From Carboxylicivirga fragile (lineage in GTDB: Bacteria; Bacteroidota; Bacteroidia; Bacteroidales; Marinilabiliaceae): DNA of 64,000 bases. Below, piece by piece: positions 1,969 through 33,130 of the stretch. The stretch lies in assembly GCA_025499625.1 (NCBI GenBank), contig JAFMVD010000030.1, forward strand, positions 1 through 64,000. Direction: 5' to 3'. Positions within the stretch are counted from its first letter, which is position 1, and each line of letters begins with the position of its first letter. The position numbers and the translations under genes were made by a program. Under the pieces are notes generated by a model. That model searched no databases. It saw only the letters and a program-made list of their open reading frames with translations, and was not told the origin of the DNA.

Positions 1969-3876
1969 TTAAGCTTCTTTTGGCTCAATTACCATTATAA
2001 CATCACCTTTAGACACAGAGTCTCCTGAATCGTACTTAATTTCAGTTACAACACCATCAACCGCAGCATCAAGGTTATTCATCATTTTCATAGCTTCAAG
2101 CACAACAACAGTATCCCCAGCTTTCACCTCTTCACCAACTTTTTTCTTGAATTCAACAATCATTCCCGGGATTGGAGCAATCAAGCTACCAGTTGCCTCA
2201 ACTTCTTTGACACCACCTTTAGCTCTGCGAGCACGAGGTGCGCCTGCAGCCGCATTAGGGTCGTTGATTTCAACAGTGAATACTTCACCATCTACTTTAA
2301 CTTCCAACTCACGGGTTGCACCATTTCCACCTTTTGATGTCAATTCACCAGATAAAGCTTTACTAACCAATAGTTCCTCTTTCTCAACCTGCTCCATCGT
2401 CTTAGCCTGGAATTCAGCAGGAATTTCTTCCTTACCATACTTCCATTTCAAGAAACGTTTACCGGTTACAGGATATAAAGCACACAATACTTCGTCGTCA
2501 ATATCTTGAGTAAAGTCTTTGAACTCATCTTTAACTGCATCCATCTCTGGCTCTAGGATTGAACCCGGACGAACAGTAATAGGCTCTTCACCACGCGGAT
2601 AATCTTTCAAGGCTTTTTTCTGAACCTCAGGATTGATTGGATCAGTTGTTTTTCCATACAATCCGTAACAAAGGTCTTTTACCTCTTTGGTGATTTGTGC
2701 ATACTCTCCCTCGTGTGAGTCAAACAATACATTGTTCACAGTTTGAACACCAACAATTTGTGAAGTAGGTGTTACCAATGGAATGTTACCAAGATCCTTA
2801 CGTACCTTAGGTAATAAACGGAATACTTCAGGTAATTTATCCAAGGCATCCATTGCTTTCAGTTGGTTCACCAAGTTAGAAAGCATACCACCCGGTGTTT
2901 GGTGAAGCAATACATTAATATCGGTAGTTGCATACTTAGGATTATTATCCAAGTGCTTGTACTTAGGTATGTATTTCTCCATCTCGTCAGAGATAGCTGT
3001 AATTTTGTTGATGTCCATACCTGAATCGCGATTAGTACCTAATAACGACATGATTAATGGCTCAACAGCAGCATGAGAAGTACGGTAAGCATATGGCCCG
3101 ATACATGTATCAACAATATCAACACCTGCCTCGATTGCTTTGAAAATTGCCAAATCAGCCATACCCGATGTAAAGTGAGTATGTAGGTTCAATGGAATAT
3201 CAGTAAAGGTCTTGATTTCGCGAATCAAGTTATAGATATCGTAAGGGGCAATTAATCCGGCCATATCTTTAATACAGATCGAATCAACACCAAAGGCTAC
3301 TAATTCTTTTACTTTATTGATATAGTATTCCATGTTGTACACATCACCACCCAAACGAGGTTGGTTAAGCGTATAACAAACCACGCCTTGAAAATGCTTA
3401 TCGTTATCTTTAATAACCTTAGCTGCCGTTTCAAAGTTACGGTAGTCATTCAAGGCATCGAAACAACGGAAAATATCCATTCCGTTATCGATTGAGCGCT
3501 GAACAAATGCCTGTACCACATCATCGGCATAGTTACGGTAACCTACTACATTCTGCCCACGAAGCAACATCGAGAATGGTGTTTTTGGCATGTGTTTCTT
3601 CAAGGTGCGTAAACGCTCCCATGGATCCTCAGCCAAGAAACGGTGCATGGTATCAAATGTAGCACCACCCCATGTTTCAACCGCGTTGTAACCTGCGTTA
3701 TCAATCATTTCGGCAACTGGCAACATATCTTCGGTACGACCGCGAGTCGCAAATAAAGATTGGTGACCATCACGTAAACTAACATCATTTATTTTAATTG
3801 GGTTGGCTGCTTTTGGACGCTCGGCGCCAAACTCAAGCTTAGCCATCTCTAATACCCCGTGTTTATCGAAATTCAT
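1969..3876 (-). CDS. oadA: Pyruvate/oxaloacetate carboxyltransferase with fused biotin carrier (OadA/PycB family)
   Basis: The 635-residue protein has a pyruvate/oxaloacetate carboxyltransferase TIM barrel at about 25-300, with metal-binding D36 in SLRDGHQS, the CIKDMAG carboxylysine motif and the LHTHFTSG metal histidines. A conserved PYC/OADA domain follows at about 300-470, then an Ala/Arg linker near 555-570 and a C-terminal biotinyl domain with the acceptor K597 in EAMKMM. It transfers CO2 between biotin and pyruvate/oxaloacetate. Its length equals the 5S plus the 1.3S subunits of propionibacterial transcarboxylase. No biotin carboxylase and no membrane decarboxylase (OadB/MmdB) subunit is nearby, and the MmdA-type partner is in the same operon, so methylmalonyl-CoA:pyruvate transcarboxylase is the favoured role. 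An oxaloacetate decarboxylase alpha subunit is the alternative. The symbol is a family label. M11 could also be the start. Confidence 0.85.
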   Translation of the reverse strand: MNFDKHGVLEMAKLEFGAERPKAANPIKINDVSLRDGHQSLFATRGRTEDMLPVAEMIDNAGYNAVETWGGATFDTMHRFLAEDPWERLRTLKKHMPKTPFSMLLRGQNVVGYRNYADDVVQAFVQRSIDNGMDIFRCFDALNDYRNFETAAKVIKDNDKHFQGVVCYTLNQPRLGGDVYNMEYYINKVKELVAFGVDSICIKDMAGLIAPYDIYNLIREIKTFTDIPLNLHTHFTSGMADLAIFKAIEAGVDIVDTCIGPYAYRTSHAAVEPLIMSLLGTNRDSGMDINKITAISDEMEKYIPKYKHLDNNPKYATTDINVLLHQTPGGMLSNLVNQLKAMDALDKLPEVFRLLPKVRKDLGNIPLVTPTSQIVGVQTVNNVLFDSHEGEYAQITKEVKDLCYGLYGKTTDPINPEVQKKALKDYPRGEEPITVRPGSILEPEMDAVKDEFKDFTQDIDDEVLCALYPVTGKRFLKWKYGKEEIPAEFQAKTMEQVEKEELLVSKALSGELTSKGGNGATRELEVKVDGEVFTVEINDPNAAAGAPRARRAKGGVKEVEATGSLIAPIPGMIVEFKKKVGEEVKAGDTVVVLEAMKMMNNLDAAVDGVVTEIKYDSGDSVSKGDVIMVIEPKEA

Positions 3877-4149: not shown

Positions 4150-5706
4150 TTACAATGGAATATTTCCGTGCTTCTTAGGAGGCAATACCTCTGTTTTAGT
4201 CGACATTACTTCCATAGCGTCGATAAGGCGCTGCCTGGTTTCGCTTGGCAGAATAACATCATCAATATAACCGCGCTTAGCAGCTAAATAAGGCACATTA
4301 AATGCATCTTCGTATTCTTTGATTTTCTCATCAGCCATTGCCTGACGATCATCGGCTTCTGCAATTTGCTTGCGGTAAGTCGAAATTACTTCCACAGCAC
4401 CCTTAGCGCCCATAACAGCAATCTCTGCCGAAGGCCAAGCAAATACCATATCCGCACCTAAAGGTTTTGAACACATCGCTAAATATGCACCACCATAATC
4501 TTTACGCGTCACAACTGTAAATTTAGGCACAGTAGCTTCGGCATATGACCAAAGTAATTTAGCCCCGTGACGAATGATACCATCCCACTCTTGCTCAACT
4601 CCTGGCAAATAACCTGGTACATCTACAAAAGTGATCATCGGGATATTAAAGGCATCACAAGTACGCACAAATCGGCTGATTTTATCAGAGGCATCAATAT
4701 CTAAACATCCTGCCTGAATCATTGGCTGGTTAGCAATTATACCTACCGATCGGTTATTTAAATGTCCAAATCCAACTATTGCATTTTCAGCATAATGCTC
4801 GTGCGCCTGCATAAATTCACCATTATCAAGTACCGACTCAATAACCTTAACCATATCATACGGTACTTTTGAATCATCTGGAATGATGGTATCCAATTCA
4901 GGGCACATACGTGCAGGATCATCACCCATTGGTATCTGAGGGGCTTCTTCAAGGTTATTATTAGGTAAGAATTCTAATAATTCTTTGATTGCCTCTATTG
5001 TATCTTCGTCACTATCACATGCGAAGTGTGCATTTCCACTTTTACTGTTGTGAACCATTGCTCCACCAAGTTCTTCTAAAGTTGTTTCTTCACCAGTAAC
5101 CGTCTTAATTACATTTGGTCCCGTGATAAACATGTGACTTTGCTTCTTTACCATAAAGATAAAGTCAGTCATAGCTGGTGAATATACAGCTCCTCCGGCA
5201 CAAGGTCCCATGATTGCCGAAATTTGAGGTATAACACCCGATGCACGTGAATTACGCATAAAGATCTCTCCATATCCCTTCAAAGCATCCACTCCTTCTT
5301 CAACTCTGGCACCGCCTGAATCATTTAGTCCAACAACGGGTGCACCAGCTTTAACAGCTAAATCCATTATTTTACAGATCTTAGCTGCATGCATCTCACC
5401 AAGCGAACCACCACGTGCGGTAAAATCCTGGGAATAGGCAAAAACAGGACGTCCATGCACTAAACCGTGACCAACAATAACCCCATCAGACGGAACATTC
5501 ACTTTTTCCAATCCGAAATTTGTTGAGCGATGCTCCACAAACATATCCACTTCCCTAAAAGTTCCTTCATCAAAAAGAAGATCAATACGTTCACGAGCGG
5601 ATAGTTTGCCTTTTTCATGTTGCTTAGCAACTCTGGCTTCGCCACCCATTTTTTGAACCTCTTCTCTGCGTTTTTTAAGTAACTCTATTTTCTCAGATAC
5701 TTTCAT
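4150..5706 (-). CDS. mmdA: Methylmalonyl-CoA/propionyl-CoA carboxyltransferase (MmdA/PccB family)
   Basis: The 518-residue protein is a full-length acyl-CoA carboxyltransferase with two crotonase-like halves: an N-terminal half with ARERIDLLFDEG and DSGGARVEEG, a central MGPCAGGAVYSPA oxyanion loop, and a C-terminal half with FVDVPGYLPGVEQE and the MGAKGAVEVI loop. It moves carboxyl groups between biotin and propionyl-CoA/methylmalonyl-CoA. It matches the length of the 12S transcarboxylase subunit and of MmdA. It is first in the operon, with the small protein and the biotin-carrying pyruvate carboxyltransferase downstream. That pairing lets the cell convert methylmalonyl-CoA plus pyruvate to propionyl-CoA plus oxaloacetate, or the reverse, without free CO2 or ATP. 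The family is certain and the exact reaction is inferred from context. Confidence 0.88.
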   Translation of the reverse strand: MKVSEKIELLKKRREEVQKMGGEARVAKQHEKGKLSARERIDLLFDEGTFREVDMFVEHRSTNFGLEKVNVPSDGVIVGHGLVHGRPVFAYSQDFTARGGSLGEMHAAKICKIMDLAVKAGAPVVGLNDSGGARVEEGVDALKGYGEIFMRNSRASGVIPQISAIMGPCAGGAVYSPAMTDFIFMVKKQSHMFITGPNVIKTVTGEETTLEELGGAMVHNSKSGNAHFACDSDEDTIEAIKELLEFLPNNNLEEAPQIPMGDDPARMCPELDTIIPDDSKVPYDMVKVIESVLDNGEFMQAHEHYAENAIVGFGHLNNRSVGIIANQPMIQAGCLDIDASDKISRFVRTCDAFNIPMITFVDVPGYLPGVEQEWDGIIRHGAKLLWSYAEATVPKFTVVTRKDYGGAYLAMCSKPLGADMVFAWPSAEIAVMGAKGAVEVISTYRKQIAEADDRQAMADEKIKEYEDAFNVPYLAAKRGYIDDVILPSETRQRLIDAMEVMSTKTEVLPPKKHGNIPL

Positions 5707-13968: not shown

Positions 13969-15507
13969 CTAAGCATCATAAACAACCATAAACTTACGTT
14001 TATCCTGGTCAATAGAAATATCAATTTTTGCGGTTGCAAGTATATCCTTACATCCTTTCGAAAGATTGACAAACGAAATTTCTTTATTCTGCACTTGGTA
14101 TCTCTCATTAAGCTTACGAATCGCCTCAATTCCACTTTGATCAACAACTCTGCTACTTTCAAAATCCACAATTATTCTATCCGGATCTTTTTTCGCATCA
14201 AAAATTTCAGCAAATGATGCCGTAGAACCAAAGAACAACGGACCGTGAATATCGTAGTGCAATATACCGTTTTCATCGGTACGTCGACGAGCATGAATAC
14301 CAATGGCATGATCCCAAGCAAAAGACAAAGCTGAAAGAACCACTCCAATAGCAACAGCTAAAGCTAAATTATGGAATACAACTGTAACTACAGCAACAAT
14401 AATCATGATAAGGAAATCGGCCAATGGCGTCTTTTTAAACTGTTTTAAACTAGACCATTCAAAAGTACCATAAGCCACCATAAACATTACCCCAATAAGT
14501 GCTGCTACAGGTATTAGTTCAATAACCGGCGACAAAAACATGATAAATACTAATAAGGTAATTGCAGCAACTAATCCTGATAAACGGCCACGAGCTCCAG
14601 AATTAATATTAATCATACTTTGTCCAATCATTGCACAGCCTCCCATGCTTCCAAAGAAACCAGAGATACAGTTTGCCATACCTTGAGCCATACTCTCTCT
14701 ATTACCACTTCCTCGCGAATCTGTCCGCTCATCAATAATGGTAAGTGTTAATAAACTTTCGATTAAACCTACACCAGCAACACTAATAGCTGGTAATAAG
14801 ATAATTTTTAATGTTCCCATACTGAACAGTTCAGGGGGATAATCTGTGAAGATAGAAGGCAAACCGCCTTGCATAGATTTTCCCTTAAGCAGGTTGATAA
14901 CAGTTGGCGTTTCAATTCCTGGAATAAATGATATTGCAGCGATTGCCACAATAGCAACTAATGCCGACGGAATGGCTTTTGTAAAACGAGGTAAAATTAC
15001 CATTATAGCAATGGTTAATGCTACTAAAGCAAATAACATATATAATTTAGATCCCGTATAATACTCAAATACGCCAGTAACATCAGTTCCAAACATTGCA
15101 AATTGCGAAGCAAAAATTACAATGGCTAGTCCATTCACAAAACCAAGCATAACCGAATGCGGAACTAAACGAATAAATTTACCTAAGCGAAGGGCACCAA
15201 CAGCTAGCTGTATCAGTCCACCCAAAATAATAGTTGGATACAAGTAGGCTTCACCATATTGATGTACTGTTGCGGCTACAACAACAGCAATTGCACCTGT
15301 GGCTCCTGAAATCATGCCTGGTCGTCCACCTAACAAAGAAGTGAAAAAGCCCATTATACAGGCTGCATATAATCCAATAAGCGGATCAACACCTGCTATA
15401 AAAGAAAATGCTATTGCCTCAGGAACAAGCGCAATTGCAACAGTAATTCCTGATAATAACTCAGTTTTAATACTTGAACCGTAGGTAAGTTCTTTAATAA
15501 AAGCCAT
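13969..15507 (-). CDS. SulP/SLC26-family anion transporter with STAS domain
   Basis: The 512-residue protein has the SulP pattern: an N-terminal helix pair with ALVPEAIAFSFIAGV and PLIGLYAA, GGRPGMISGATGA on the second repeat motif, 10-12 further transmembrane segments to about residue 400, and a cytoplasmic STAS domain at 410-512 with the FESSRVVDQSGIEAI signature. It moves anions such as sulfate, bicarbonate or dicarboxylates across the inner membrane. No carbonic anhydrase or sulfur assimilation gene is adjacent, so the substrate is open. The 118-base leader and a -7 box at 15632-15639 suggest it is transcribed alone, and a terminator follows. Confidence 0.9.
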   Translation of the reverse strand: MAFIKELTYGSSIKTELLSGITVAIALVPEAIAFSFIAGVDPLIGLYAACIMGFFTSLLGGRPGMISGATGAIAVVVAATVHQYGEAYLYPTIILGGLIQLAVGALRLGKFIRLVPHSVMLGFVNGLAIVIFASQFAMFGTDVTGVFEYYTGSKLYMLFALVALTIAIMVILPRFTKAIPSALVAIVAIAAISFIPGIETPTVINLLKGKSMQGGLPSIFTDYPPELFSMGTLKIILLPAISVAGVGLIESLLTLTIIDERTDSRGSGNRESMAQGMANCISGFFGSMGGCAMIGQSMININSGARGRLSGLVAAITLLVFIMFLSPVIELIPVAALIGVMFMVAYGTFEWSSLKQFKKTPLADFLIMIIVAVVTVVFHNLALAVAIGVVLSALSFAWDHAIGIHARRRTDENGILHYDIHGPLFFGSTASFAEIFDAKKDPDRIIVDFESSRVVDQSGIEAIRKLNERYQVQNKEISFVNLSKGCKDILATAKIDISIDQDKRKFMVVYDA

Positions 15508-15774: not shown

Positions 15775-18700
15775 CTATTTTTTATTTCCACCGGATGACT
15801 TTTTATCCGGAATAGTAGTTTTCTTTACAGAAGCCTTAGATTTATTAGAAACAGCCTTTTCTTTTCTTCGCTCTAGTTCCTTCAACACAGCATACTTTGC
15901 AGCAGCAATGGTTTCACGATTAACCTTTTCAGTTATTCTTCCCTTAAGCAAGTCATCGAATTCGATGTACTCGCCCATGAGTAACAGTTGAGTAATCATG
16001 TTATTAACCATCGTTTCTTGTGCATAACCAACAGCTTGATACAGTTGATCGGCCCCATCCATAAATTCTTCTGCAAATTCAGGATAATTAGGTAAACTCA
16101 TCAGCTCGTTGCAGGTTTCTCCAAAACTACTTAATTCGATATTTAAGTTTGGCGTAACCAGAAGTGGACTAAATGCCTCTTTCTTATTCTTTGGCTCATA
16201 CATATTAACCCCTGCCAAATCGACAGCCACACTTGGATCATCCATACGTACAAATTCAGCTTTCATCATCTTATCCAGTTGATACAGATAAAAGTTGTAT
16301 CGCCATATTTCATTACTACTTCTACCATTGGTGAAAATATGCGCATAATGCTCACGAACCGATTGTCGCACTTTGTTTTTGCTTTCGTTCATCTCAGAAG
16401 ATCCAGCTCTTAAATCCTGAATTAAATCAGTAAGTGCTTCAGCCGCTTTTTGAGGACCGGTAATTTCCTTACCCTTCTTCCCTATTTCGGTAGAGACAAT
16501 GCCACACTGCACTTTTCGTCCGGCACCTAACCTATCTTCACCGCCACTCAATACATCGGTTAAATAGTAACGCGACTCAACCTGACCTTCCTGTGCTATA
16601 AATGGCTGACCAGCAGGTGTACTTGCCAAGGCATCAAACATCTGCCCAAACACATTTCGATTGATAACAACATGTAATGTCTCACTTTCATCAGAAGCTT
16701 TCACTTCGGCAACAAAGCGATTTTTAACAATGTCGAAATTAACCTTTATGATATTCACAGCTTCATTATTGTACTCAAATGACTTACCAACAAATATCTG
16801 ATTTACCACCTGCTCAATGTCTATTTTATCCATCATCTTATACGATGAGGCTAAATAGTACACTCTCTCGCTTGGCACATATTCCCAATCCAACACATCA
16901 TCGAGATAATTGCCATGCTTTGCCAGAACATCCACAATGTTTTTATCTGCTGTGTAGCGATGGAATGTACGCTGGAAATTTGGACCATCCTGACTGGTCG
17001 CCTTCTCCTTACGTTCACCATGCGAATCGATGTACATCATGAAATTCTCAGGATTATCTACTCTTGTAATTCCTGCTTCTTCCTTGCTGTAGTTATGAGC
17101 TGTAAGAATGATATCTATTTTATATGGCATCTGAATTTCGCACAAACCACTTACCGTGCTACGCGAATTTAAATCGGTAACGTTACTATCGGCACTACTC
17201 TCAAATAAGTATTTATAGTATTTAATGAAATCTGGGTCAAAATCGGTTACACGCGAGAAATCACCAACTTCGGTACCAAAACCGTAGATATTTCCTTGCT
17301 TATCGCGGAATACATGGAACATATCACCCGCAATCATTTTGATGGAACGAACCCCTGGTAAATTTTGCTTCAACCATTTTAGAATTAAGGCCGCAATCAT
17401 CTCTGACTTACCTACTCCGCTATCACCATCTATTTCAACCACAAATATACTTCCATCCTCCAACTCAACAGCGAATAGTGAGCCATGCTTAGGAATACCA
17501 CCCATCTCCTTCACCTTTTCATTAATCATGGTCAAGCGTGGTTTCTTCACATCGCCAAAGTAATCAGCCTCCTTTTTCAAAGGTGTCACTAAAGTTTTGA
17601 TGCTGCCGTTTGGCCCCTTAATATCAAAGAAGCCAACCTGAGGGAAAGAAATTACTTTTTCAGGCGCTCCCAAGAACAATAGTACATCTGGTTGAAAGTT
17701 CTGCGCCTCCTGTAACGAAATATCCTTGTATTGCATCAAACGGAAATTATCCGTCATGTATTTGATATAACCTTTCTGGAAAACAAACATTTCCTTAACC
17801 GCACCGTGTTGCAATATTTTACATCGATAATCATCCGGATCCATATTGGCCACAAATTGCGCCAAACGACGTTCAAAGAATTTCGAACTAGGCTTGGTAC
17901 TTAAAGCTTTGATGTAATTATTCTTCGAATTACCATCATTCATTTCCATCAAATACTCCGAAACTTCCTCAGAACGATCAATCTTATGGAAAGGATATTC
18001 GCGCTTTTTAGCATCGGTAACAATACGTGTATGTAATTGTATTGGCTGTTCAACTGAAACAACTCCACACTTGGTCATCAGTTCATTGATCCATTTCAAC
18101 GATCCATTTTCAAAAGTCTCAAGCGTTTGATCCTGCATCTCGAAGTGACGATAAAGAGACACTCCATGCTGAATCATTTCGTTAACACTTGAATTCTGAC
18201 GGCTAAAATGAATCTCCACCACCTTTATTAAGGTGTGTGCATATCGTTGATAATAATCGGTTCCCTTCGAAAGATTTTGAACCCCAACAATAAAATTAAC
18301 AACCTTCCGGGTTACCTCATTTAACTTCTCTTGCGATACTTTAATATCCTTTTTACGAATAATGTAGTTCATGATATCGTCAATCTCCTGAGGCAATATC
18401 TCCGTCAAAAGATTCTCAGTTATCATCTTCAATTCATCATCGCTTGTGGCATCAATCTTAGCTTGTAAATATTTAAGCTTTTCAAGAGCATGACGATAGA
18501 ATGAATTTTCATGCTGCAACAGGTAGACGTACAAGACCCTCTCAGGCATCGATAAATCTTCTGACAGAACACGCTTCTTAACCGTATCAATCAATATTCC
18601 AATGGAACGAGGAAGTATTTCAATATTTACATATTCTTCATCCTGACGTAAACCTTCAAAAAACTCTAACAAGAACTTCTCAAGATCCAGCTCATTAACA

Positions 18701-21700
18701 TTAAGGCCAGTAACCTCGGTAAACATAGCACAAGTAGTCTCTACAATCTCCTTTCTACTTGGCTCAATGCTTGGCTGCTCAAACGGCAAGTTAAAATGCA
18801 AAAGAATCTCTTGAATATGTTTCTTAAGCACCACATTCACACCTTCCAAACGCGCCACATCCATGTGGTAATCGCCGCTGGCTTTCAAAGTCAATATTTT
18901 CATCTTTGCATCAGAGAATAACAAGCGCTCCATTTCGATGAGAATTTCACGCATTGTGTTTTTCTCCTCCGGATCATCCAATACAAAGTGGTTCGGATGG
19001 AAACTCTTCTTATTATGAATGTATTTTAGGATGGTAGCCTTACTATATCGTGAGGCCACAATATTAAAATTCAAGTGCTTTATCTGAGGAATGCGCTTGT
19101 GAATTTGCGGCAAGAGGTTTTCGTATATTTTCGTAAAGGCCGAACTACGTATAAACTCTTCCACATTTCTGCAATCACCCACATCGCCAGAAAACTCAAT
19201 TACCGAATTTTCGGAATCCCCAATTGTAGTAACCGTAACTCCGCTAACCTGAGGCGAAGCATGATACAAGGATCGGTTCTCATTTATCTTTAAGGAAACG
19301 TTTACCTTTTTATTAACATCCCTGATATCCTTGTAATCTTCAAATAAGCTAGACAAATATTGCTTGTCAGCCTTAGTAGCAAACATTTGATGCAATACAG
19401 TCTCACTCTCAATTTCCTTTGAAGTGGTCTTTCGCACTTCTTTAAAAGCTAACCAATTAGTCAAATAGATAATTAAGGCTGTACGAATTTCCTTTTCAAA
19501 TATCTCGTAACTCAATGGAGAACCATCTAAATAACCTCCCAAAGAAAAACGCACCACTCCTGTTCGATACGGCAATACAGATATCCCTTTCTTGACAGCG
19601 ATAATCTTCGAGAACTCTTCTAAATCATTAAATGTTCCGAAATTATGGAAGTGTAAATTAAACAAATAACTGCCGTCAGAATCGAGCACGGAAACATCAG
19701 CTATGGCCAACTCATTCAGTACTTCAGAAGCCACTTTTTTAGCAATCTTCAAACGTACATTTGACTCAGTGCGGAAATTTTTATTAATCCTAAACCGATT
19801 AAGTCCTTTTACCAACTCTTTGTGATAATAAACAAAGAATGGCACCTCCTTGTATTTAAAATCATCAGGCAAACCAAGAATATCTAACTTAGCCAGAGCC
19901 ACCAATTCATCTAATAAATACAAGTGCAAAGGACTGCCTTCAAATTGACTTAATGGCTGCAACACCGATTTTGAGTGACTTGCTTTCTCTGTTGCACGCA
20001 CCACAATAAACTGTTCAATCAACTCTTTGATCTTACTGCGAGATGCACTTTTGGGCAATTCAGACTCCATGGCATCCTTCAGCTTCTTTGCACGAATTCC
20101 AATATCTAATACACTATTCAAGAAATATAAGGAACTAGAATTTCCTTTAGCGGAGGTATTGCGTTGTTTTGCAAACTTGATAACATCAGCCATTTCCGGC
20201 GTAGCCACTATAGCTCCCAAACGATCGCCCGAGGCTGCTAAATTCTTAGTTGTTGATAGCGATGAAACAACACGAATTTTAGAATATACATTTTCGTTAT
20301 TTAACACATAGCGAGATATACTCCGCCACTTAGGCATTTCACTTCCACTCGTCTTAACACTATCGGTATAGGCCTCATCTAACAACAGGGTAATTTTACT
20401 GTTGTTTACGAATTTCAAAAAGTTGATCAGACTCTCTTTGTTGAAATCTGAAAAGCCAGTTGGGTTCGAAGGATCGTTGATGATTATCGTCGTATTTTCA
20501 CAGAAACGATCCCATAAATTACCACTTGCATCAAATAATTGAAGCGTATTTTTTATGCGTCCTAATTTTGCATGAATACGTTCATAGTCGATTCGCTGAT
20601 CATCAAGATTTTCAATTTCAATATCGAATGGGTTAATTGAAAAATCTTCGTCAGAAAACAAATCAGTATATTCCCATGCCAATACTTTATTGTAAATAAT
20701 GTAAGGCTTTGGACTTCTGTCTTTAAAGAACAGAAGGTCACGAATAATCATCTGAACATCATCTGCTATCGACGTTTTTTCAAGATTACCCAAATCACTA
20801 ATAAACCCTTTCAGTATCTCTTGCTCTTCCTTGCTCTTGTTTTGATAATCCTTAAACACCCCCAGATCAATCAATACATTTCGGAATCGACCTTTGTTGT
20901 CCGACTCGTTATCAACCTTGGTAATGTACTTCTGATAAGTTTCCATAAACAAATTCACACCAAAATTCTTATGAAAATGGTTGTGAAGCGTACGCTTATA
21001 ATTATCAGGAATAAAATTAATAATGGTTTTGCAGCGCGTTTGAATCTCTTGCTTGAGAGGCTTTAATTCACGTTGTTGCAAATACTCTCCATAAGTGCGC
21101 AATTGATTTCTACCACCGCCTTCAAGAATCGTCGCTATTTTTAAGTTAGGATTACTTGAATAAAAATATTGACATAACTTCTGCTCAAAACCTTCAATCA
21201 ACACTTTATTCTGTTGATTACGCGCCTTCTCATCAACCGTATTCTGAATGAATACAATAAAATCGCGCAATTTCTGAAGCGAATATCGATCCTTTAATAT
21301 CTGACGAGTAAACCCATCAAATTTAAATAGGTTGGTATTTTTAACAACATCATCAGTTTCTCCTAATTGCTCTTGTTTTAATTCTTTAAGTTCCGAATTG
21401 TATTCCTCTACCTTTTTCTCAAGTAAATCTTTGAATTCGGCAAGATACTTGGTGTTTACATTTTCAAGAATCAAGCGCAAGTTAAGCTGAGTATTAGCTG
21501 GAGAACCCAATTTCTTGGTATGAACTTTATTAAGCGTATTTATAATACCATTGTGAAAACTAAAAACCAGGCAAGTGTTGGAAGCTATTGATTCTGGCGA
21601 ATCATCCACAATTACCAAACGCGAAAGCATAGGAAACCATTTGGATCCCGCAAACATGTTTTTACGCATGTGTTTCACCTTCACAGCAAATACACTTGAA

Positions 21701-22488
21701 GAGTCTTCAAGCATTAATTGAAATAAATCTTCGCCTTTTACATTCTCAACAACCTTTACACAATCACGACCAAAAACATCACCCTTTAATAAATCAATAG
21801 CAACATCTGAATTACCAGAAACCACCGTGCGAATCAGACCATTTAGGCCTTTAAAGTTAACTGCCCACTCCGTTCGGTGAAGAAAGTTATCCTTTTCGGC
21901 TTTAGTTGTATAATGCGTACTTTGGTTAATCATTTGTTCCAGGGTATCCATGAGGTAGTTCCAATGCGCCTCATCAATATCTCCAATTACGCCAATCACA
22001 TCACGAAAACGCCTTAGATCCTGAAGTAAATCACCCACCACAACCTTTGATACAAAATTGATGGTTTGATCAGTAACAGGTGGCGTACCAACCGAAAAAT
22101 CGTGTACTTTCAAAAGGCTAGATAACCATTTTTTCTGTTGTTTATCAAGCATATCGGCATCGATAAAACCAGCAACTTTTTGGTTAAACTTACGCTTAAG
22201 CGAGTTATAAACAAAAGCCTTTGAATCCTCGTGTGGAAACAGCATCAGTGACACATCTACATAAGATGGAATCTCTTCACGAAACTTCAATAAGTACTTT
22301 TGAATCTCAGCCTGTTGACGAGCCGGATCATTCGGTTCCTCATGGCACAATTTCACAAATGATTTAAGATTGTCAAAAATGAAATTGGGGAGTAAAACTT
22401 CTGCCCTTTCGCCCAATGCGGCATAAAGGTCGATAAATTCGCGTGCTTCCTTTCTAAGAAAGGCTTTGGGAACACCTTCTAATTGCAT
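15775..22488 (-). CDS. Giant 2,237-residue fusion: PLP aminotransferase-like domain plus PEPCK/HPr-kinase-like domain
   Basis: One uninterrupted frame with no signal peptide or membrane helix, so it is probably cytoplasmic. Residues 1 to about 600 are helical and unrecognised. Residues about 620-1020 look like a fold-type-I PLP enzyme: NDPSNPTG at 671-678, D704 in LLLDEAY, Schiff-base K748 in STTKN, R756 in ASGDRLG, and R980 in VVRFSLGG at the substrate-carboxylate position. About 1020-1600 is unrecognised. Near 1668-1800 is a P-loop resembling HPr kinase and ATP-PEPCK: H1668, GDSGVGKSE with K1694, D1722 in IAGDM, R1776 in LNSRST and DIILTAH. The C-terminus is Lys/Ser-rich. The key residues of both domains are present, which favours activity. 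The substrate is unknown, and assignments are by eye. It is monocistronic. Confidence 0.8.
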   Translation of the reverse strand: MQLEGVPKAFLRKEAREFIDLYAALGERAEVLLPNFIFDNLKSFVKLCHEEPNDPARQQAEIQKYLLKFREEIPSYVDVSLMLFPHEDSKAFVYNSLKRKFNQKVAGFIDADMLDKQQKKWLSSLLKVHDFSVGTPPVTDQTINFVSKVVVGDLLQDLRRFRDVIGVIGDIDEAHWNYLMDTLEQMINQSTHYTTKAEKDNFLHRTEWAVNFKGLNGLIRTVVSGNSDVAIDLLKGDVFGRDCVKVVENVKGEDLFQLMLEDSSSVFAVKVKHMRKNMFAGSKWFPMLSRLVIVDDSPESIASNTCLVFSFHNGIINTLNKVHTKKLGSPANTQLNLRLILENVNTKYLAEFKDLLEKKVEEYNSELKELKQEQLGETDDVVKNTNLFKFDGFTRQILKDRYSLQKLRDFIVFIQNTVDEKARNQQNKVLIEGFEQKLCQYFYSSNPNLKIATILEGGGRNQLRTYGEYLQQRELKPLKQEIQTRCKTIINFIPDNYKRTLHNHFHKNFGVNLFMETYQKYITKVDNESDNKGRFRNVLIDLGVFKDYQNKSKEEQEILKGFISDLGNLEKTSIADDVQMIIRDLLFFKDRSPKPYIIYNKVLAWEYTDLFSDEDFSINPFDIEIENLDDQRIDYERIHAKLGRIKNTLQLFDASGNLWDRFCENTTIIINDPSNPTGFSDFNKESLINFLKFVNNSKITLLLDEAYTDSVKTSGSEMPKWRSISRYVLNNENVYSKIRVVSSLSTTKNLAASGDRLGAIVATPEMADVIKFAKQRNTSAKGNSSSLYFLNSVLDIGIRAKKLKDAMESELPKSASRSKIKELIEQFIVVRATEKASHSKSVLQPLSQFEGSPLHLYLLDELVALAKLDILGLPDDFKYKEVPFFVYYHKELVKGLNRFRINKNFRTESNVRLKIAKKVASEVLNELAIADVSVLDSDGSYLFNLHFHNFGTFNDLEEFSKIIAVKKGISVLPYRTGVVRFSLGGYLDGSPLSYEIFEKEIRTALIIYLTNWLAFKEVRKTTSKEIESETVLHQMFATKADKQYLSSLFEDYKDIRDVNKKVNVSLKINENRSLYHASPQVSGVTVTTIGDSENSVIEFSGDVGDCRNVEEFIRSSAFTKIYENLLPQIHKRIPQIKHLNFNIVASRYSKATILKYIHNKKSFHPNHFVLDDPEEKNTMREILIEMERLLFSDAKMKILTLKASGDYHMDVARLEGVNVVLKKHIQEILLHFNLPFEQPSIEPSRKEIVETTCAMFTEVTGLNVNELDLEKFLLEFFEGLRQDEEYVNIEILPRSIGILIDTVKKRVLSEDLSMPERVLYVYLLQHENSFYRHALEKLKYLQAKIDATSDDELKMITENLLTEILPQEIDDIMNYIIRKKDIKVSQEKLNEVTRKVVNFIVGVQNLSKGTDYYQRYAHTLIKVVEIHFSRQNSSVNEMIQHGVSLYRHFEMQDQTLETFENGSLKWINELMTKCGVVSVEQPIQLHTRIVTDAKKREYPFHKIDRSEEVSEYLMEMNDGNSKNNYIKALSTKPSSKFFERRLAQFVANMDPDDYRCKILQHGAVKEMFVFQKGYIKYMTDNFRLMQYKDISLQEAQNFQPDVLLFLGAPEKVISFPQVGFFDIKGPNGSIKTLVTPLKKEADYFGDVKKPRLTMINEKVKEMGGIPKHGSLFAVELEDGSIFVVEIDGDSGVGKSEMIAALILKWLKQNLPGVRSIKMIAGDMFHVFRDKQGNIYGFGTEVGDFSRVTDFDPDFIKYYKYLFESSADSNVTDLNSRSTVSGLCEIQMPYKIDIILTAHNYSKEEAGITRVDNPENFMMYIDSHGERKEKATSQDGPNFQRTFHRYTADKNIVDVLAKHGNYLDDVLDWEYVPSERVYYLASSYKMMDKIDIEQVVNQIFVGKSFEYNNEAVNIIKVNFDIVKNRFVAEVKASDESETLHVVINRNVFGQMFDALASTPAGQPFIAQEGQVESRYYLTDVLSGGEDRLGAGRKVQCGIVSTEIGKKGKEITGPQKAAEALTDLIQDLRAGSSEMNESKNKVRQSVREHYAHIFTNGRSSNEIWRYNFYLYQLDKMMKAEFVRMDDPSVAVDLAGVNMYEPKNKKEAFSPLLVTPNLNIELSSFGETCNELMSLPNYPEFAEEFMDGADQLYQAVGYAQETMVNNMITQLLLMGEYIEFDDLLKGRITEKVNRETIAAAKYAVLKELERRKEKAVSNKSKASVKKTTIPDKKSSGGNKK

Positions 22489-22761: not shown

Positions 22762-24921
22762 TTATTCAACAATTGTCATTTCGTCTAATAAATAACCTGC
22801 TCCCGCAAACTTGTCGACAATAAATAATACGTAGCGAATATCCAAAGAGATATTACGACACTGATCAGGGTTGAACATGAGATCGCTCATTACGCCTTCC
22901 CAGGCACGATCAAAGTTAATTCCTATTAAATGCCCTTCTGCATTCAAAACAGGACTACCCGAATTTCCACCTGTGGTATGATTAGTTGCAGCAAAACAAA
23001 CAGGTACAGAACCATCCACTTCGTAACGACCATAATCCTTGTTCTTATACAATTCTTTCAATTTCGCCGGAACCCTGTAATCGTAGATATCAGGATTATC
23101 TTTTTCCATGATACCTTCAAGGCTAGTTGAATGCTTATAATAAACTGCATCTCGAGCTGTATATCCTTTTACCTGTCCGTAAGATACGCGTAAAGTAAAA
23201 TTCGCATCAGGATAAAATACTTTATCTGACTCAAATTTCATCTGAGCAGCCATATAATCTTTATTCAACACAGCTAATTCACTTCGGTATTTATTAAGTT
23301 GAGGATACACCTTATCTGTATACACTGTTTCAAAACTATTATTCAGAACATAAGCAGGGTCTTTCTCTAAAGCCTTAATTGATTTGCTTGAGAAATTGTT
23401 AATGAAATCCAGCACAAGATCCTTATCATCAAATATGGATTTTTTATACAGATAATCAACATACTTCTCTACATTACCTTTGTATTTACTATTAATCAAT
23501 GTATAGATTTCTGGTTGGAAAGCCTTATCAATATTACTTGCATACATACCTAGTAGTTGAGCAGAAATCTCCTTATCTAGTGGTTTATAATAGTCCTTAA
23601 AGAATCGTTCCGCTCTTTCGACTAGTTTAGCTTTTACAGCATTAGCTGCATCTTCGTTAACTTCTTCTCCTTCATAGATAGCTTTTAAAGCTTCCATCTG
23701 ACTTGCCAGGTAAACTAGCTCCATACCATTTGAACGAATCATCTCACGATAATAACCGTATGTCAGATTGTAATTGGCATAATCCTTATAAATGCTTTTA
23801 TATTTACTTAACAAGTCAACATATTCAGGTGCCTTAACCTTAGCCCATTTCACAAAGGCTTCTTCTTGCTTTTGCTTTTTATTAATGGCATCAAGAATTT
23901 CTAATCCGCGATTTTCGCCAATCCAGCGTTTCCAGCTATTGGAGATCCGTGCATTCTTAGCAGCATACTTAATACGTACTGCAGGGTCTGCTTCCTGGTA
24001 GCGATTCATTATATTTAACTTCTCAGTTCGTACATCAATCAACTTAGGATTAACTGTTTCTGTTAACATTTCAAGGTGGTACGATGGTACATATTGATAA
24101 GTGCTACCTGGATATCCAAATACCATTGTAAAGTCACCCTCTTGCACGCCTTTCATCGAAACAGAAAAATGTTTACCTGGCTTATAAGGCACATTGTCTG
24201 CAGAATATTCAGCGGGTTTATTGTCCTTATCGGCATAGATGCGAAACATTGAGAAATCACCAGTATGACGAGGCCACATCCAGTTATCAGTATCACCACC
24301 AAACTTACCTATGGCTGAAGGAGGAGCTCCAACCAAGCGCACATCTTTGTAGATTTCATTAACAAACAAAAAGTACTGATTGCCATGGAAAAATGGCTTT
24401 AAAACGGCTTTATAGTGTGTGTCTTTTACAGCCTCTTCTTTAATTGCTTTGATATTAGCCGCTATAACTTTATTGCGCTCCTTGTCTTCCATACCTTCAG
24501 TTGTACCTTCCAGTACCGCATCAGTAACATCATCCATGCGCTTTAAGAAAGTTACAGATAAACCAGGGTTAACCAATTCTTCTTCTTGCGACATTGCCCA
24601 AAAACCATTGGTCAAATAATCATTCTCAACCGAACTATGATATTGTATTTGTCCATAGCCACAGTGGTGGTTGGTAACAATTAATCCTTTGTCAGAAATC
24701 AACTCACCTGTACATCCTCGACCAAAAATTACCACCGCATCTTTCAAACATGCTTGGTTTACACTATACACATCTTCCGCAGTCAATTTAAAACCCATTT
24801 CCTGCATCTGCTCTATGTTATATTTCTGCAATAACATAGGAATCCACATACCTTCGTCGGCACGCGATTGTATTTGAATAATCGTTAGAGCAATAATGCT
24901 CAATACTAATTTTCTAATCAT
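22762..24921 (-). CDS. dpp11: S46-family dipeptidyl peptidase, DPP11-type (Asp/Glu-specific)
   Basis: The 719-residue protein has a signal peptide and the full S46 layout: N-terminal beta-barrel with catalytic His in TNHHCGYG (H85), the Asp region GGDTDNWMWPRHTGDF, a long helical domain at about 290-570, and catalytic S654 in TGGNSGSPV. S46 enzymes remove dipeptides from peptides in the periplasm. R672 in INFDRAWEG sits 18 residues after the serine, at the place where Arg673 gives Porphyromonas DPP11 its preference for Asp/Glu at P1, whereas DPP7 has Gly. DPP11-type specificity is therefore likely but remains inference. It is last in the KdsC-UbiA-Maf cluster, 19 bases after maf. Confidence 0.9.
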   Translation of the reverse strand: MIRKLVLSIIALTIIQIQSRADEGMWIPMLLQKYNIEQMQEMGFKLTAEDVYSVNQACLKDAVVIFGRGCTGELISDKGLIVTNHHCGYGQIQYHSSVENDYLTNGFWAMSQEEELVNPGLSVTFLKRMDDVTDAVLEGTTEGMEDKERNKVIAANIKAIKEEAVKDTHYKAVLKPFFHGNQYFLFVNEIYKDVRLVGAPPSAIGKFGGDTDNWMWPRHTGDFSMFRIYADKDNKPAEYSADNVPYKPGKHFSVSMKGVQEGDFTMVFGYPGSTYQYVPSYHLEMLTETVNPKLIDVRTEKLNIMNRYQEADPAVRIKYAAKNARISNSWKRWIGENRGLEILDAINKKQKQEEAFVKWAKVKAPEYVDLLSKYKSIYKDYANYNLTYGYYREMIRSNGMELVYLASQMEALKAIYEGEEVNEDAANAVKAKLVERAERFFKDYYKPLDKEISAQLLGMYASNIDKAFQPEIYTLINSKYKGNVEKYVDYLYKKSIFDDKDLVLDFINNFSSKSIKALEKDPAYVLNNSFETVYTDKVYPQLNKYRSELAVLNKDYMAAQMKFESDKVFYPDANFTLRVSYGQVKGYTARDAVYYKHSTSLEGIMEKDNPDIYDYRVPAKLKELYKNKDYGRYEVDGSVPVCFAATNHTTGGNSGSPVLNAEGHLIGINFDRAWEGVMSDLMFNPDQCRNISLDIRYVLFIVDKFAGAGYLLDEMTIVE

Positions 24922-30844: not shown

Positions 30845-33130
30845 TTATAGCTGAACCATCGTATCGTCTTTGGTTTGCGCATCAACCACCGTTATGGCTG
30901 CCATATCGACTATTTCACGCACACTACTCTGCATTTGAAGTACATGAATAGGCTTTTTAATACCAAGAAGAATAGGTCCAATGATCTCAACCTGTCCCAA
31001 TTGTTGCATCATTTTGTAGGCAATATTACCAGCACTCAAACTTGGGAACACAATTGTATTCACATCGCGCTTACCCAATTTTGAAAATGGAAATTTCTTA
31101 TTTCTTAATTCAGCATTAAAGGCATAATTAGCTTGCATTTCTCCATCCACAGCCAAATCTGGATAATTCTGATGTAGATATTCTACTGCCTTCCGCACTC
31201 TTAAAGGACTTCCAATACGTGTTGAACCAAAGTTAGAGTATGAAACTAATGCAACAACTGGATCAATGTTAAACTTCCGTACTTCGTTGGCAGTTAACAG
31301 AGTTGTATCAGCTAAAGTACGTGATGATGGCTGACCATTTACGGTAGTATCTGCAAAAAAGTAAGGACCATTCTTCGTCATCACAATATACATACCTGCA
31401 ATGTGATTCAGCGTATTATTGGAGCCAACTATCTGAATGGCAGGTTTAATTGTATCAACATACTTATTAGCAAATCCACCTAAAAAGCCATCAGCTTCTC
31501 CCGACTCTACCATCATAATACCAAAATGGTTTCGATCATTCATCTTACGACAGGCATCTTCCATATTCAAACCCTTACGCATGCGCTTCTCAAATAACAA
31601 CTTAGCATAGCGCTCACGACGCTCGGCTTGCTCCTTTTCTTTTACATCAATAATTTGAAGATCAGAAATATCAATCTGATTCTCCTCAGCAATTTTAACA
31701 ATATTGGTTCTATCCCCTAATAAGATAGGAATAGCAATACCTTCGTTACGAACTACGTCAACAGCCTTCAGCACTTTAAAATGATCAGCATCACAGAATA
31801 TAATGCGCTTTGGATCCGACTTGGCTTTTACACGCACATCACGCACCAATTTATTATAGGTACCCATGCGTTTTTCTAACTCAATCTTATAGGCATCCCA
31901 ATCTTTTATTTCCTGACGCGCCACACCCGTTTCGATGGCTGATTTAGCAACAGCAGGAGCGACTACCGTAATTAAACGTGGATCAACCGGTTTAGGTATT
32001 AAGTAGTCTTTACCAAACATTAAGTTCTGACTCTTATAGGCGGCATTTACTTTATCAGGCACATCTTCTTTTGCTAATTCAGCTAAAGCATAAACAGCCG
32101 CCTTTTTCATATCCTCGGTAATTGCCTTGGCCCTAACATCTAATGCGCCTCTGAAAATAAATGGAAAACCTAATACATTATTAATCTGGTTCGGATAATC
32201 AGAACGACCAGTAGCCATAATTACATCCTCGCGAGCAGCTATAGCATCTTCATAGCTTATTTCAGGAACAGGATTAGCCAAAGCAAAAACAATAGGATCG
32301 TTATTCATTGAACGTACCATTTCTTTGGTAAGAATGTTACCCTTCGATAATCCTAAAAACACATCAGCTCCATTGATTACTTCTTCCAAGGTACTTAGGT
32401 CACTTTCTTGTGCAAACTCAACTTTATATTTATTAAGATCCGTACGTTTGGTAGTCATCAAACCCTTACTGTCCAACATGTATACATTTTTAGGATCAGC
32501 TCCTAAACTCATGTACAATTTAGTACACATAATGGCAGATGCACCAGCCCCATTTACAACAATTTTAACTTTAGTAATATCTTTACCAACTACGTCAAGC
32601 GCATTAATTAAACCTGCTGCTGAAATAATAGCCGTACCATGTTGGTCATCATGAAATACTGGAATATCTAATTCTTCTTGCAAACGCCTTTCAACTTCAA
32701 AGCACTCAGGAGCCTTAATATCTTCCAGGTTAATACCTCCAAAGGTTGGAGCAATGGCTTTGATAATCTTTACTAATTCGTCAACATTCGTCTCATCAAC
32801 TTCAATGTCGAACACATCAACATCGGCGAAAACTTTAAATAATAATCCTTTACCTTCCATCACTGGTTTTCCAGCAAGTGCTCCAATATTTCCAAGACCA
32901 AGTACGGCTGTACCATTAGAAATGACACCAACTAAATTACCTTTTGCCGTATAACGATAAGCGTCTTCAGGGTTCTTCTCTATTTCGAGGCAGGGCTCTG
33001 CCACTCCAGGCGAATACGCCAATGATAAATCTAGCTGAGTACTGTAGGGTTTGGTTGGGACTACTTCAATTTTTCCCGGCTTACCATTTTCATGATAATC
33101 AAGGGCATCTTGTTTTGTGAATGAGGCCAT
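30845..33130 (-). CDS. maeB: NADP-dependent malic enzyme (MaeB) with phosphotransacetylase-like domain
   Basis: The 761-residue protein matches MaeB in length and layout: a malic enzyme N-terminal domain with YSPGVAEPC and the Tyr/Lys catalytic region, VFHDDQHGTAI for the metal site, a Rossmann domain with VVNGAGASAI, and a C-terminal phosphate-acetyltransferase-like regulatory domain (about 430-761) with VEIIGPILLGIKKPIHVLQ. It decarboxylates malate to pyruvate with NADP+. In E. coli the PTA-like part senses acetyl-CoA and probably does so here. Together with the transcarboxylase it links C4 acids and pyruvate. Confidence 0.93.
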   Translation of the reverse strand: MASFTKQDALDYHENGKPGKIEVVPTKPYSTQLDLSLAYSPGVAEPCLEIEKNPEDAYRYTAKGNLVGVISNGTAVLGLGNIGALAGKPVMEGKGLLFKVFADVDVFDIEVDETNVDELVKIIKAIAPTFGGINLEDIKAPECFEVERRLQEELDIPVFHDDQHGTAIISAAGLINALDVVGKDITKVKIVVNGAGASAIMCTKLYMSLGADPKNVYMLDSKGLMTTKRTDLNKYKVEFAQESDLSTLEEVINGADVFLGLSKGNILTKEMVRSMNNDPIVFALANPVPEISYEDAIAAREDVIMATGRSDYPNQINNVLGFPFIFRGALDVRAKAITEDMKKAAVYALAELAKEDVPDKVNAAYKSQNLMFGKDYLIPKPVDPRLITVVAPAVAKSAIETGVARQEIKDWDAYKIELEKRMGTYNKLVRDVRVKAKSDPKRIIFCDADHFKVLKAVDVVRNEGIAIPILLGDRTNIVKIAEENQIDISDLQIIDVKEKEQAERRERYAKLLFEKRMRKGLNMEDACRKMNDRNHFGIMMVESGEADGFLGGFANKYVDTIKPAIQIVGSNNTLNHIAGMYIVMTKNGPYFFADTTVNGQPSSRTLADTTLLTANEVRKFNIDPVVALVSYSNFGSTRIGSPLRVRKAVEYLHQNYPDLAVDGEMQANYAFNAELRNKKFPFSKLGKRDVNTIVFPSLSAGNIAYKMMQQLGQVEIIGPILLGIKKPIHVLQMQSSVREIVDMAAITVVDAQTKDDTMVQL

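Follow-up and report, generated by a model that had tools for sequence, protein, structure and literature searches.

The 64,000-nucleotide stretch of Carboxylicivirga fragile DNA analysed here (contig JAFMVD010000030.1, positions 1 to 64,000; the window) encodes a giant protein of 2,237 amino acids, one unbroken, conserved chain that joins a fold-type I pyridoxal 5'-phosphate (PLP) domain to a domain resembling phosphoenolpyruvate carboxykinase (PEPCK), with two family-specific blocks. The gene lies at 15775..22488 on the minus strand, as do all features below, from an ATG start to a stop codon at 15775-15777, and 49 of 57 related loci carry a frame matching >2,000 of its residues. An earlier note on this DNA had the coordinates, the length and the absence of breaks right and left the strand unstated; frame 1 of the plus strand across 15775-22488 contains many stops. 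We give a probability of about 42% to the reading that the giant is a two-step enzyme converting an amino acid, probably aspartate, to oxaloacetate and then to phosphoenolpyruvate (PEP), or the reverse. On this view, transamination by the PLP domain would yield a keto acid, in the likeliest case oxaloacetate from aspartate. The PEPCK-like domain would then decarboxylate and phosphorylate oxaloacetate to PEP, with ATP, GTP or pyrophosphate (PPi) as phosphoryl donor. In the other direction, PEP and CO2 would yield oxaloacetate and then aspartate, with both steps reversed. In PEPCK, an enol intermediate derived from oxaloacetate is phosphorylated by ATP, GTP or PPi (PMC10441589). Because a single transamination converts aspartate to oxaloacetate, a linked aminotransferase would be an obvious addition, to judge by the two folds. 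The parts are divergent members of known folds, and their joint architecture appears to be new. If the reading is correct, this would be a natural fusion that ties the nitrogen of amino acids to the PEP-oxaloacetate node, with channelling as a hypothesis, and its C-terminal half would represent a branch of the PEPCK family that has diverged far.

The N-terminal half is, by sequence comparison and modelling, a fold-type I PLP enzyme that retains its PLP-binding residues, and PLP binding and transamination are predicted. This aminotransferase-like domain spans residues 441-1060 (19309..21168, with an inferred N-terminal limit) and was delimited with Pfam, Foldseek and PDB profile matches at residues 668-803 and, weakly, 902-998. 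Pfam Aminotran_1_2 (PF00155) matches the window copy at residues 617-784 (E 3.2e-12; 46.8 bits against a curated cut-off of 19.7), over profile positions 114-252 of 361 only, and was detected in 39/39 sequences of alignment A1 (E<=0.01). With the alignments, this match maps to residues 616-785 (20134..20643) and includes N675, D704, Y707, S745, K748 and R756. Against the PDB, the N-half profile matches 1-aminocyclopropane-1-carboxylate (ACC) synthases over residues 668-803, with E between 3.6e-5 and 0.0043. An aspartate aminotransferase is matched weakly at 666-768 and 902-998, with E 0.0069 for the whole sequence and i-Evalues of 6.6 and 3.2 for the two domains. N675, D704, Y707 and K748 align with ACC synthase 1iax, K748 (20245..20247), the predicted Schiff-base lysine, falling on the lysine of S-L-S-K; R980 is placed less surely, on the V-R-L-S of 1o4s, where the match is weak (domain i-Evalue 3.2). 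All five are identical in 50/50 aligned sequences, window copy included. We take K748 to be the Schiff-base lysine, D704 the PLP-ring aspartate, N675 and Y707 the corresponding asparagine and tyrosine, and R980 the carboxylate-binding arginine. The AlphaFold model of this half has a pLDDT (predicted local distance difference test) of 83.1 and a pTM (predicted template modelling score) of 0.83, and the best 50 of 282 Foldseek matches at E<=0.001 (best E 7.8e-7) are fold-type I PLP enzymes by title or known fold. Three stretches, 500-527, 708-721 and 837-847, have pLDDT <50; conservation is strong in the first and partial in the second, so they may need dimer formation to become ordered.

The C-terminal half resembles PEPCK in sequence and predicted structure, a likeness that rests on Foldseek and on profile comparisons in which a stand-alone protein serves as the link. 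The PEPCK-like domain covers residues ~1451-2030 (16399..18138, limits approximate), as placed by Foldseek and by hhalign to the stand-alone relatives. The AlphaFold model of the C half is only fair (pLDDT 73.9, pTM 0.63). The best 50 of its 62 Foldseek matches at E<=0.001 are all PEPCKs; the lowest E is 1.0e-4, and TM-scores are low, at 0.22-0.25 of the target, from a model that is partly poor. In hhalign, the giant matches the stand-alone relatives over residues 1549-1831 (99.6%, E 1e-23) and weakly over ~1953-2025 (42%, E 2.7e-4), and the stand-alones in turn match ATP-PEPCK (E ~1e-5, probability 81-84%); these E-values are for single comparisons, not library searches. The runs used 6/8 and 11/13 stand-alones (a motif filter passed over L073 and L076, which are both in alignment A5), and in one of them PEPCK frames >600 residues were reduced to the last 545. 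Two motifs anchor the comparison: YFGDVKK at residues 1643-1649 (17542..17562), the counterpart of ATP-PEPCK Y-G-G-E-M-K-K, with Y1643, K1648 and K1649 identical in 50/50, and the P-loop GDSGVGKSE at residues 1688-1696 (17401..17427), with S1690, K1694 and S1695 identical in 50/50. A three-way alignment of giants, stand-alones and ATP-PEPCKs (7/50, 6 and 6/21 sequences, respectively) shares Y1643, K1648-K1649, H1668, S1690, K1694, D1722 and N1774-x-R1776, each identical in 50/50 giants. Presumably K-K, the histidine, the P-loop serine and lysine, the second aspartate and N-x-R serve here, as in PEPCK, as metal and phosphate ligands. The earlier note had proposed two enzyme folds carrying cofactor and nucleotide motifs, and Pfam, Foldseek, AlphaFold and the motif alignment agree with it; the residues it named (N675, D704, K748, R980, H1668 and K1694) are correctly placed and identical in 50/50, and the structure prediction it called for returned a fold-type I PLP enzyme for the N half and, by Foldseek, a PEPCK-like fold for the C half. 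PDB sequence matches of the C-half or stand-alone profile to YfbR, an OST subunit, pentatricopeptide proteins and PilU were not taken as real. PPi-dependent PEPCK is a protein of ~1,100 amino acids; none appeared among the PDB sequence matches or the best 50 of 62 Foldseek matches, in libraries not checked for the presence of such a structure.

The stand-alone relatives, proteins of ~578 amino acids, link the giant to the PEPCK family. The plasmid search returned a Limosilactobacillus fermentum plasmid protein, AYP99509.1, annotated as phosphoenolpyruvate carboxykinase, and the order survey returned further such proteins. At E<=0.1, seven of eight have a PEPCK_ATP match, the strongest with E 2.1e-5, and none of the three with bit scores shown reached the curated cut-off of PF01293. 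The family (loci L070-L076 and L108-L112) is present in 10/393 order genomes, five of which hold two or three copies. PEPCK_ATP is missing in 8/10 stand-alone genomes, compared with 32/198 genomes of the order survey; within the 198-genome set it is missing in 4/5 genomes with a stand-alone and in 28/193 without (Fisher p 0.0026, uncorrected for kinship). The eight genomes lacking PEPCK_ATP are spread over three families (f66, f128 and f151), and within genus g219 two genomes, G373 and G712, have a stand-alone and no PEPCK_ATP, while a third, G458, has PEPCK_ATP and no stand-alone. Among eight loci (L060 and L070-L076), a PEP carboxylase gene (PF00311, >1,070 bits) adjoins the stand-alone at L070 and L071, and a DeoC/LacD-type aldolase gene at L072 and L074. 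The occurrence of stand-alones mostly where PEPCK_ATP is missing, together with these neighbours, suggests that this branch can carry out the PEPCK reaction; if so, stand-alones could account for the formation of PEP from oxaloacetate in some members of the order that lack canonical PEPCK. Stand-alone and giant were found together in 0/393 genomes (stand-alone in 0/25 giant genomes, with <=3 candidates scored per genome), and an overlap this small is also expected by chance.

Several observations weigh against an enzyme running from aspartate to PEP. Gly1721 replaces the first aspartate of the PEPCK D-D pair and Arg1746 the lysine that follows G-G-C-Y-A, both identical in 50/50. The N-terminal part of PEPCK carries an oxaloacetate-binding arginine; its counterpart was not assigned, R1488 being identical in 50/50 in a region where the alignment is unreliable. 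Neither Pfam (at E<=1 for the window copy and at E<=0.1 for the 40 members of alignment A2) nor NCBIfam returned a PEPCK model, and the C half of the window copy had no Pfam match of any kind at E<=0.1. Direct hhalign of giant against ATP-PEPCK was weak (probability 20.5%, E 0.0011), and pLDDT is <50 over most of residues 1742-1834. Only two of the eight stand-alone loci adjoin PEP carboxylase, and four have neither PEP carboxylase nor the aldolase adjacent. The N-half comparisons point to no particular amino acid, aspartate included. The C-half P-loop draws weak generic matches, to NACHT in 14/40, nSTAND3 in 9/40 and Hpr_kinase_C in 8/40 members (best E of the last 0.0018). Finally, PEPCK_ATP is also present in 22/25 giant genomes of the order and 21/22 of the family.

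The Hpr_kinase_C matches bear on two other explanations. The C-terminal domain could be a small-molecule kinase whose substrate, be it an amino acid, a different keto acid or a carrier, the PLP domain then transforms, much as phospho-threonine is decarboxylated for cobamides. We regard this as rather unlikely. The P-loop GDSGxGKSE and its preceding H-G resemble HPr kinase as well as PEPCK, the Hpr_kinase_C matches at E<=0.1 point the same way, and among the NCBIfam matches of the PLP part the one to CobD threonine-phosphate decarboxylase (4.9e-8) is about as strong as the others; however, these NCBIfam matches are all generic, with scores well short of the cut-offs, and the K-K and N-x-R of PEPCK, which are not known to be part of HPr kinase, are retained. 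The same weak Hpr_kinase_C matches and the HPrK-like P-loop, along with the lack of a second metabolic gene conserved next door, would also fit an HPr-kinase-type protein kinase/phosphorylase acting on its own PLP domain or on a partner, in effect a self-regulated aminotransferase. That explanation is improbable given that the best 50 of 62 Foldseek matches are PEPCKs and K1648-K1649 are identical in 50/50. In the window copy itself, PF07475 gave nothing at E<=0.1. The retention of K-K, histidine, aspartate and N-x-R, and the stand-alones found mostly without canonical PEPCK, argue that the phosphorylated substrate would be oxaloacetate and not an amino acid. Of the function sketched in the earlier note, phosphorylation of a keto acid thus fits the sequence evidence, and prior phosphorylation of an amino acid is not favoured.

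The co-occurrence with ordinary PEPCK shapes what the giant could be for. The window's own genome holds PEPCK_ATP besides the giant. In the family survey PEPCK_ATP is present in 21/22 genomes with the giant and 20/38 without (Fisher p 0.0005, uncorrected for kinship); in the order survey the figures are 12/14 and 154/184 (p 1.0), with no association. Replacement of PEPCK by the giant itself is not supported, given the 22/25 order and 21/22 family genomes that hold both; because most giant genomes also hold PEPCK_ATP, the giant adds something instead. This co-occurrence, the two altered PEPCK positions and the ~830 residues in two blocks without found relatives would also suit a protein with a regulatory or structural role, one or both of its enzyme folds sensing ligands such as PLP, PEP or a nucleotide without turnover. 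Binding alone would hardly need the identity in 50/50 seen at the remaining catalytic positions checked, and we hold a sensing role to be the least probable of these explanations. Under the favoured two-step reading, an extended version would be a single-chain machine from aspartate to PEP, or the reverse, that passes oxaloacetate between its sites across two scaffold blocks not seen before and provides a private PEP-oxaloacetate branch beside ordinary PEPCK; we consider this version less likely than not.

Two further blocks and a tail make up the rest of the chain. The N-terminal block, residues 1-440 (21169..22488), is helical and alpha-beta in the AlphaFold model and has no convincing family match; its profile (A3) matched 2/296 phylum genomes, both inside giant frames, and no stand-alone form was found there. 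FapA matches in 7/39 members at ~313-377 (best E 0.00019), where the model shows a long helix, were taken as chance. The second block, residues 1061-1450 (18139..19308), is modelled as an alpha/beta part and a helical bundle and has no relative found; its profile (A4, residues 1060-1450) matched 14/198 order genomes, all inside giant frames and never in a stand-alone form. Together the two blocks comprise ~830 conserved residues with no relative outside giants in the genomes searched, in line with the earlier note, in which ~1,100 residues in two other blocks matched nothing known. They may hold the two sites together, regulate them, or both. The chain ends in a mostly helical tail, residues ~2031-2237 (15778..16398), that finishes in a variable, partly gapped stretch, as seen in the alignment and the model.

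The order covered by our surveys is, to judge by the labels of related loci, Bacteroidales. A peptide-pattern scan of genome contigs yielded the 57 loci; in 49, the long frame matches the query with few gaps, at 49.7-83.6% identity to the window protein. Seventeen loci lie at 71-84% identity, most of them with the label of Marinilabiliaceae or of one of its genera; another seven, at 57-59%, carry the labels Rikenellaceae, Alistipes or Odoribacter, and the remaining 25 fall at 50-55%. Whole-genome searches, which scored 2 to 9 candidates per genome, found the giant in 22/60 family, 14/198 order and 2/296 phylum genomes; in the order survey 21/198 genomes had some match, five of these to a stand-alone only and two to an ordinary aminotransferase only. 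In the genomes searched, the four blocks always occurred together. All four evolve under constraint: among five relatives compared, the proportion of nonsynonymous differences (pN) is 0.07-0.21 in every block and that of synonymous differences (pS) is saturated at 0.79-0.94. The 39 relatives retained at <93% identity supplied the alignments, of which A1 took 38, A2 39, and A3 and A4 30. The full alignment excludes eight of the 57 loci whose frames are cut or broken (L031, L032, L041, L042, L045, L050, L051 and L057) and includes L009, which lacks the first 133 residues.

In the window's genus the giant is present in 2/9 genomes, in copies 82% identical, which suggests loss or transfer. Two metagenome-assembled genomes with the gene are labelled as other phyla, Chlorobiota (L003, 77% identity) and Calditrichaceae (L020, 53%), and these labels may be wrong. 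The gene is broken into three frames in a Geofilum rubicundum draft (L041, 153-6882) and into two at L009 (7002-13965), and lacks two internal stretches at L045 (555-6329), from a metagenome-assembled genome; assembly error or decay may account for these three. Viral contigs (by pattern scan) and phages gave no match to the giant and plasmids one partial match, at residues 1564-1750, leaving a mobile or phage origin without support. A role as a defence system was likewise set aside, with three marginal PADLOC matches only (best E 0.0034). In PHROGs, one family of unknown function matches the PLP part (E 6.6e-9).

Set beside known systems, the giant shares with class I/II aminotransferases (PF00155; 1iax, 1b8g and 1m4n being the best solved by profile) the fold and the N-D-Y-K-R residues for PLP and substrate. 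Those enzymes are typically ~400 amino acids long, whereas the giant's domain sits in a 2,237-residue chain with partial Pfam coverage. With ATP-PEPCK (PF01293) it shares Y-x-G-x-x-K-K, the histidine, the P-loop, the aspartate and N-x-R, and by Foldseek it shares the fold of GTP-PEPCK (PF00821), the best 50 of 62 matches being GTP-type; it differs from both in being fused, in lacking a family-model match, in having G1721 and R1746 for Asp and Lys, and in a P-loop ending in S-E, not T-T. The stand-alone proteins, the closest relatives found for residues 1549-1831, differ in being single-domain and in keeping D-D. HPr(Ser) kinase/phosphorylase (PF07475) has a similar GDSGxGKSE P-loop after H-G, but matches weakly in 8/40 only, and the giant has the K-K of PEPCK. 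A precedent for an aminotransferase fused to and supplying a second enzyme is the Mycoplasma penetrans methionyl-tRNA synthetase with an appended aminotransferase domain, although its partner enzyme differs from that of the giant (PMC7694997). Literature searches over titles and the starts of abstracts of the papers listed, with subscription papers and preprints outside their range, found no description of an aminotransferase-PEPCK fusion or of homologues, whose prior description with a known role the earlier note had named as a refutation, and a search of passages of PMC8100219 gave no such fusion under the terms used.

The neighbourhood is uninformative about function, as the earlier note had supposed when it found that no neighbour explains the protein. 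The same-strand flanking genes encode a sulfate-permease-family protein (13969-15507) and an S46 peptidase (22762-24921), and because the gaps to them are 267 and 273 bases, the giant gene is probably a single-gene unit. No neighbour is shared beyond close relatives; the next most common family occurs beside the giant gene in 10/58 sources, with several loci too short to show flanks. An operon-based function was rejected on these grounds. Within ~14 kb of the giant gene lie genes for a carboxylase-domain/biotin protein (1969-3876), a carboxyl transferase (4150-5706) and a malic enzyme-phosphotransacetylase fusion (30845-33130), whose conservation as neighbours was checked only through the flanks of giant loci; their products may all act near the pyruvate/oxaloacetate node, and their closeness may be coincidence.

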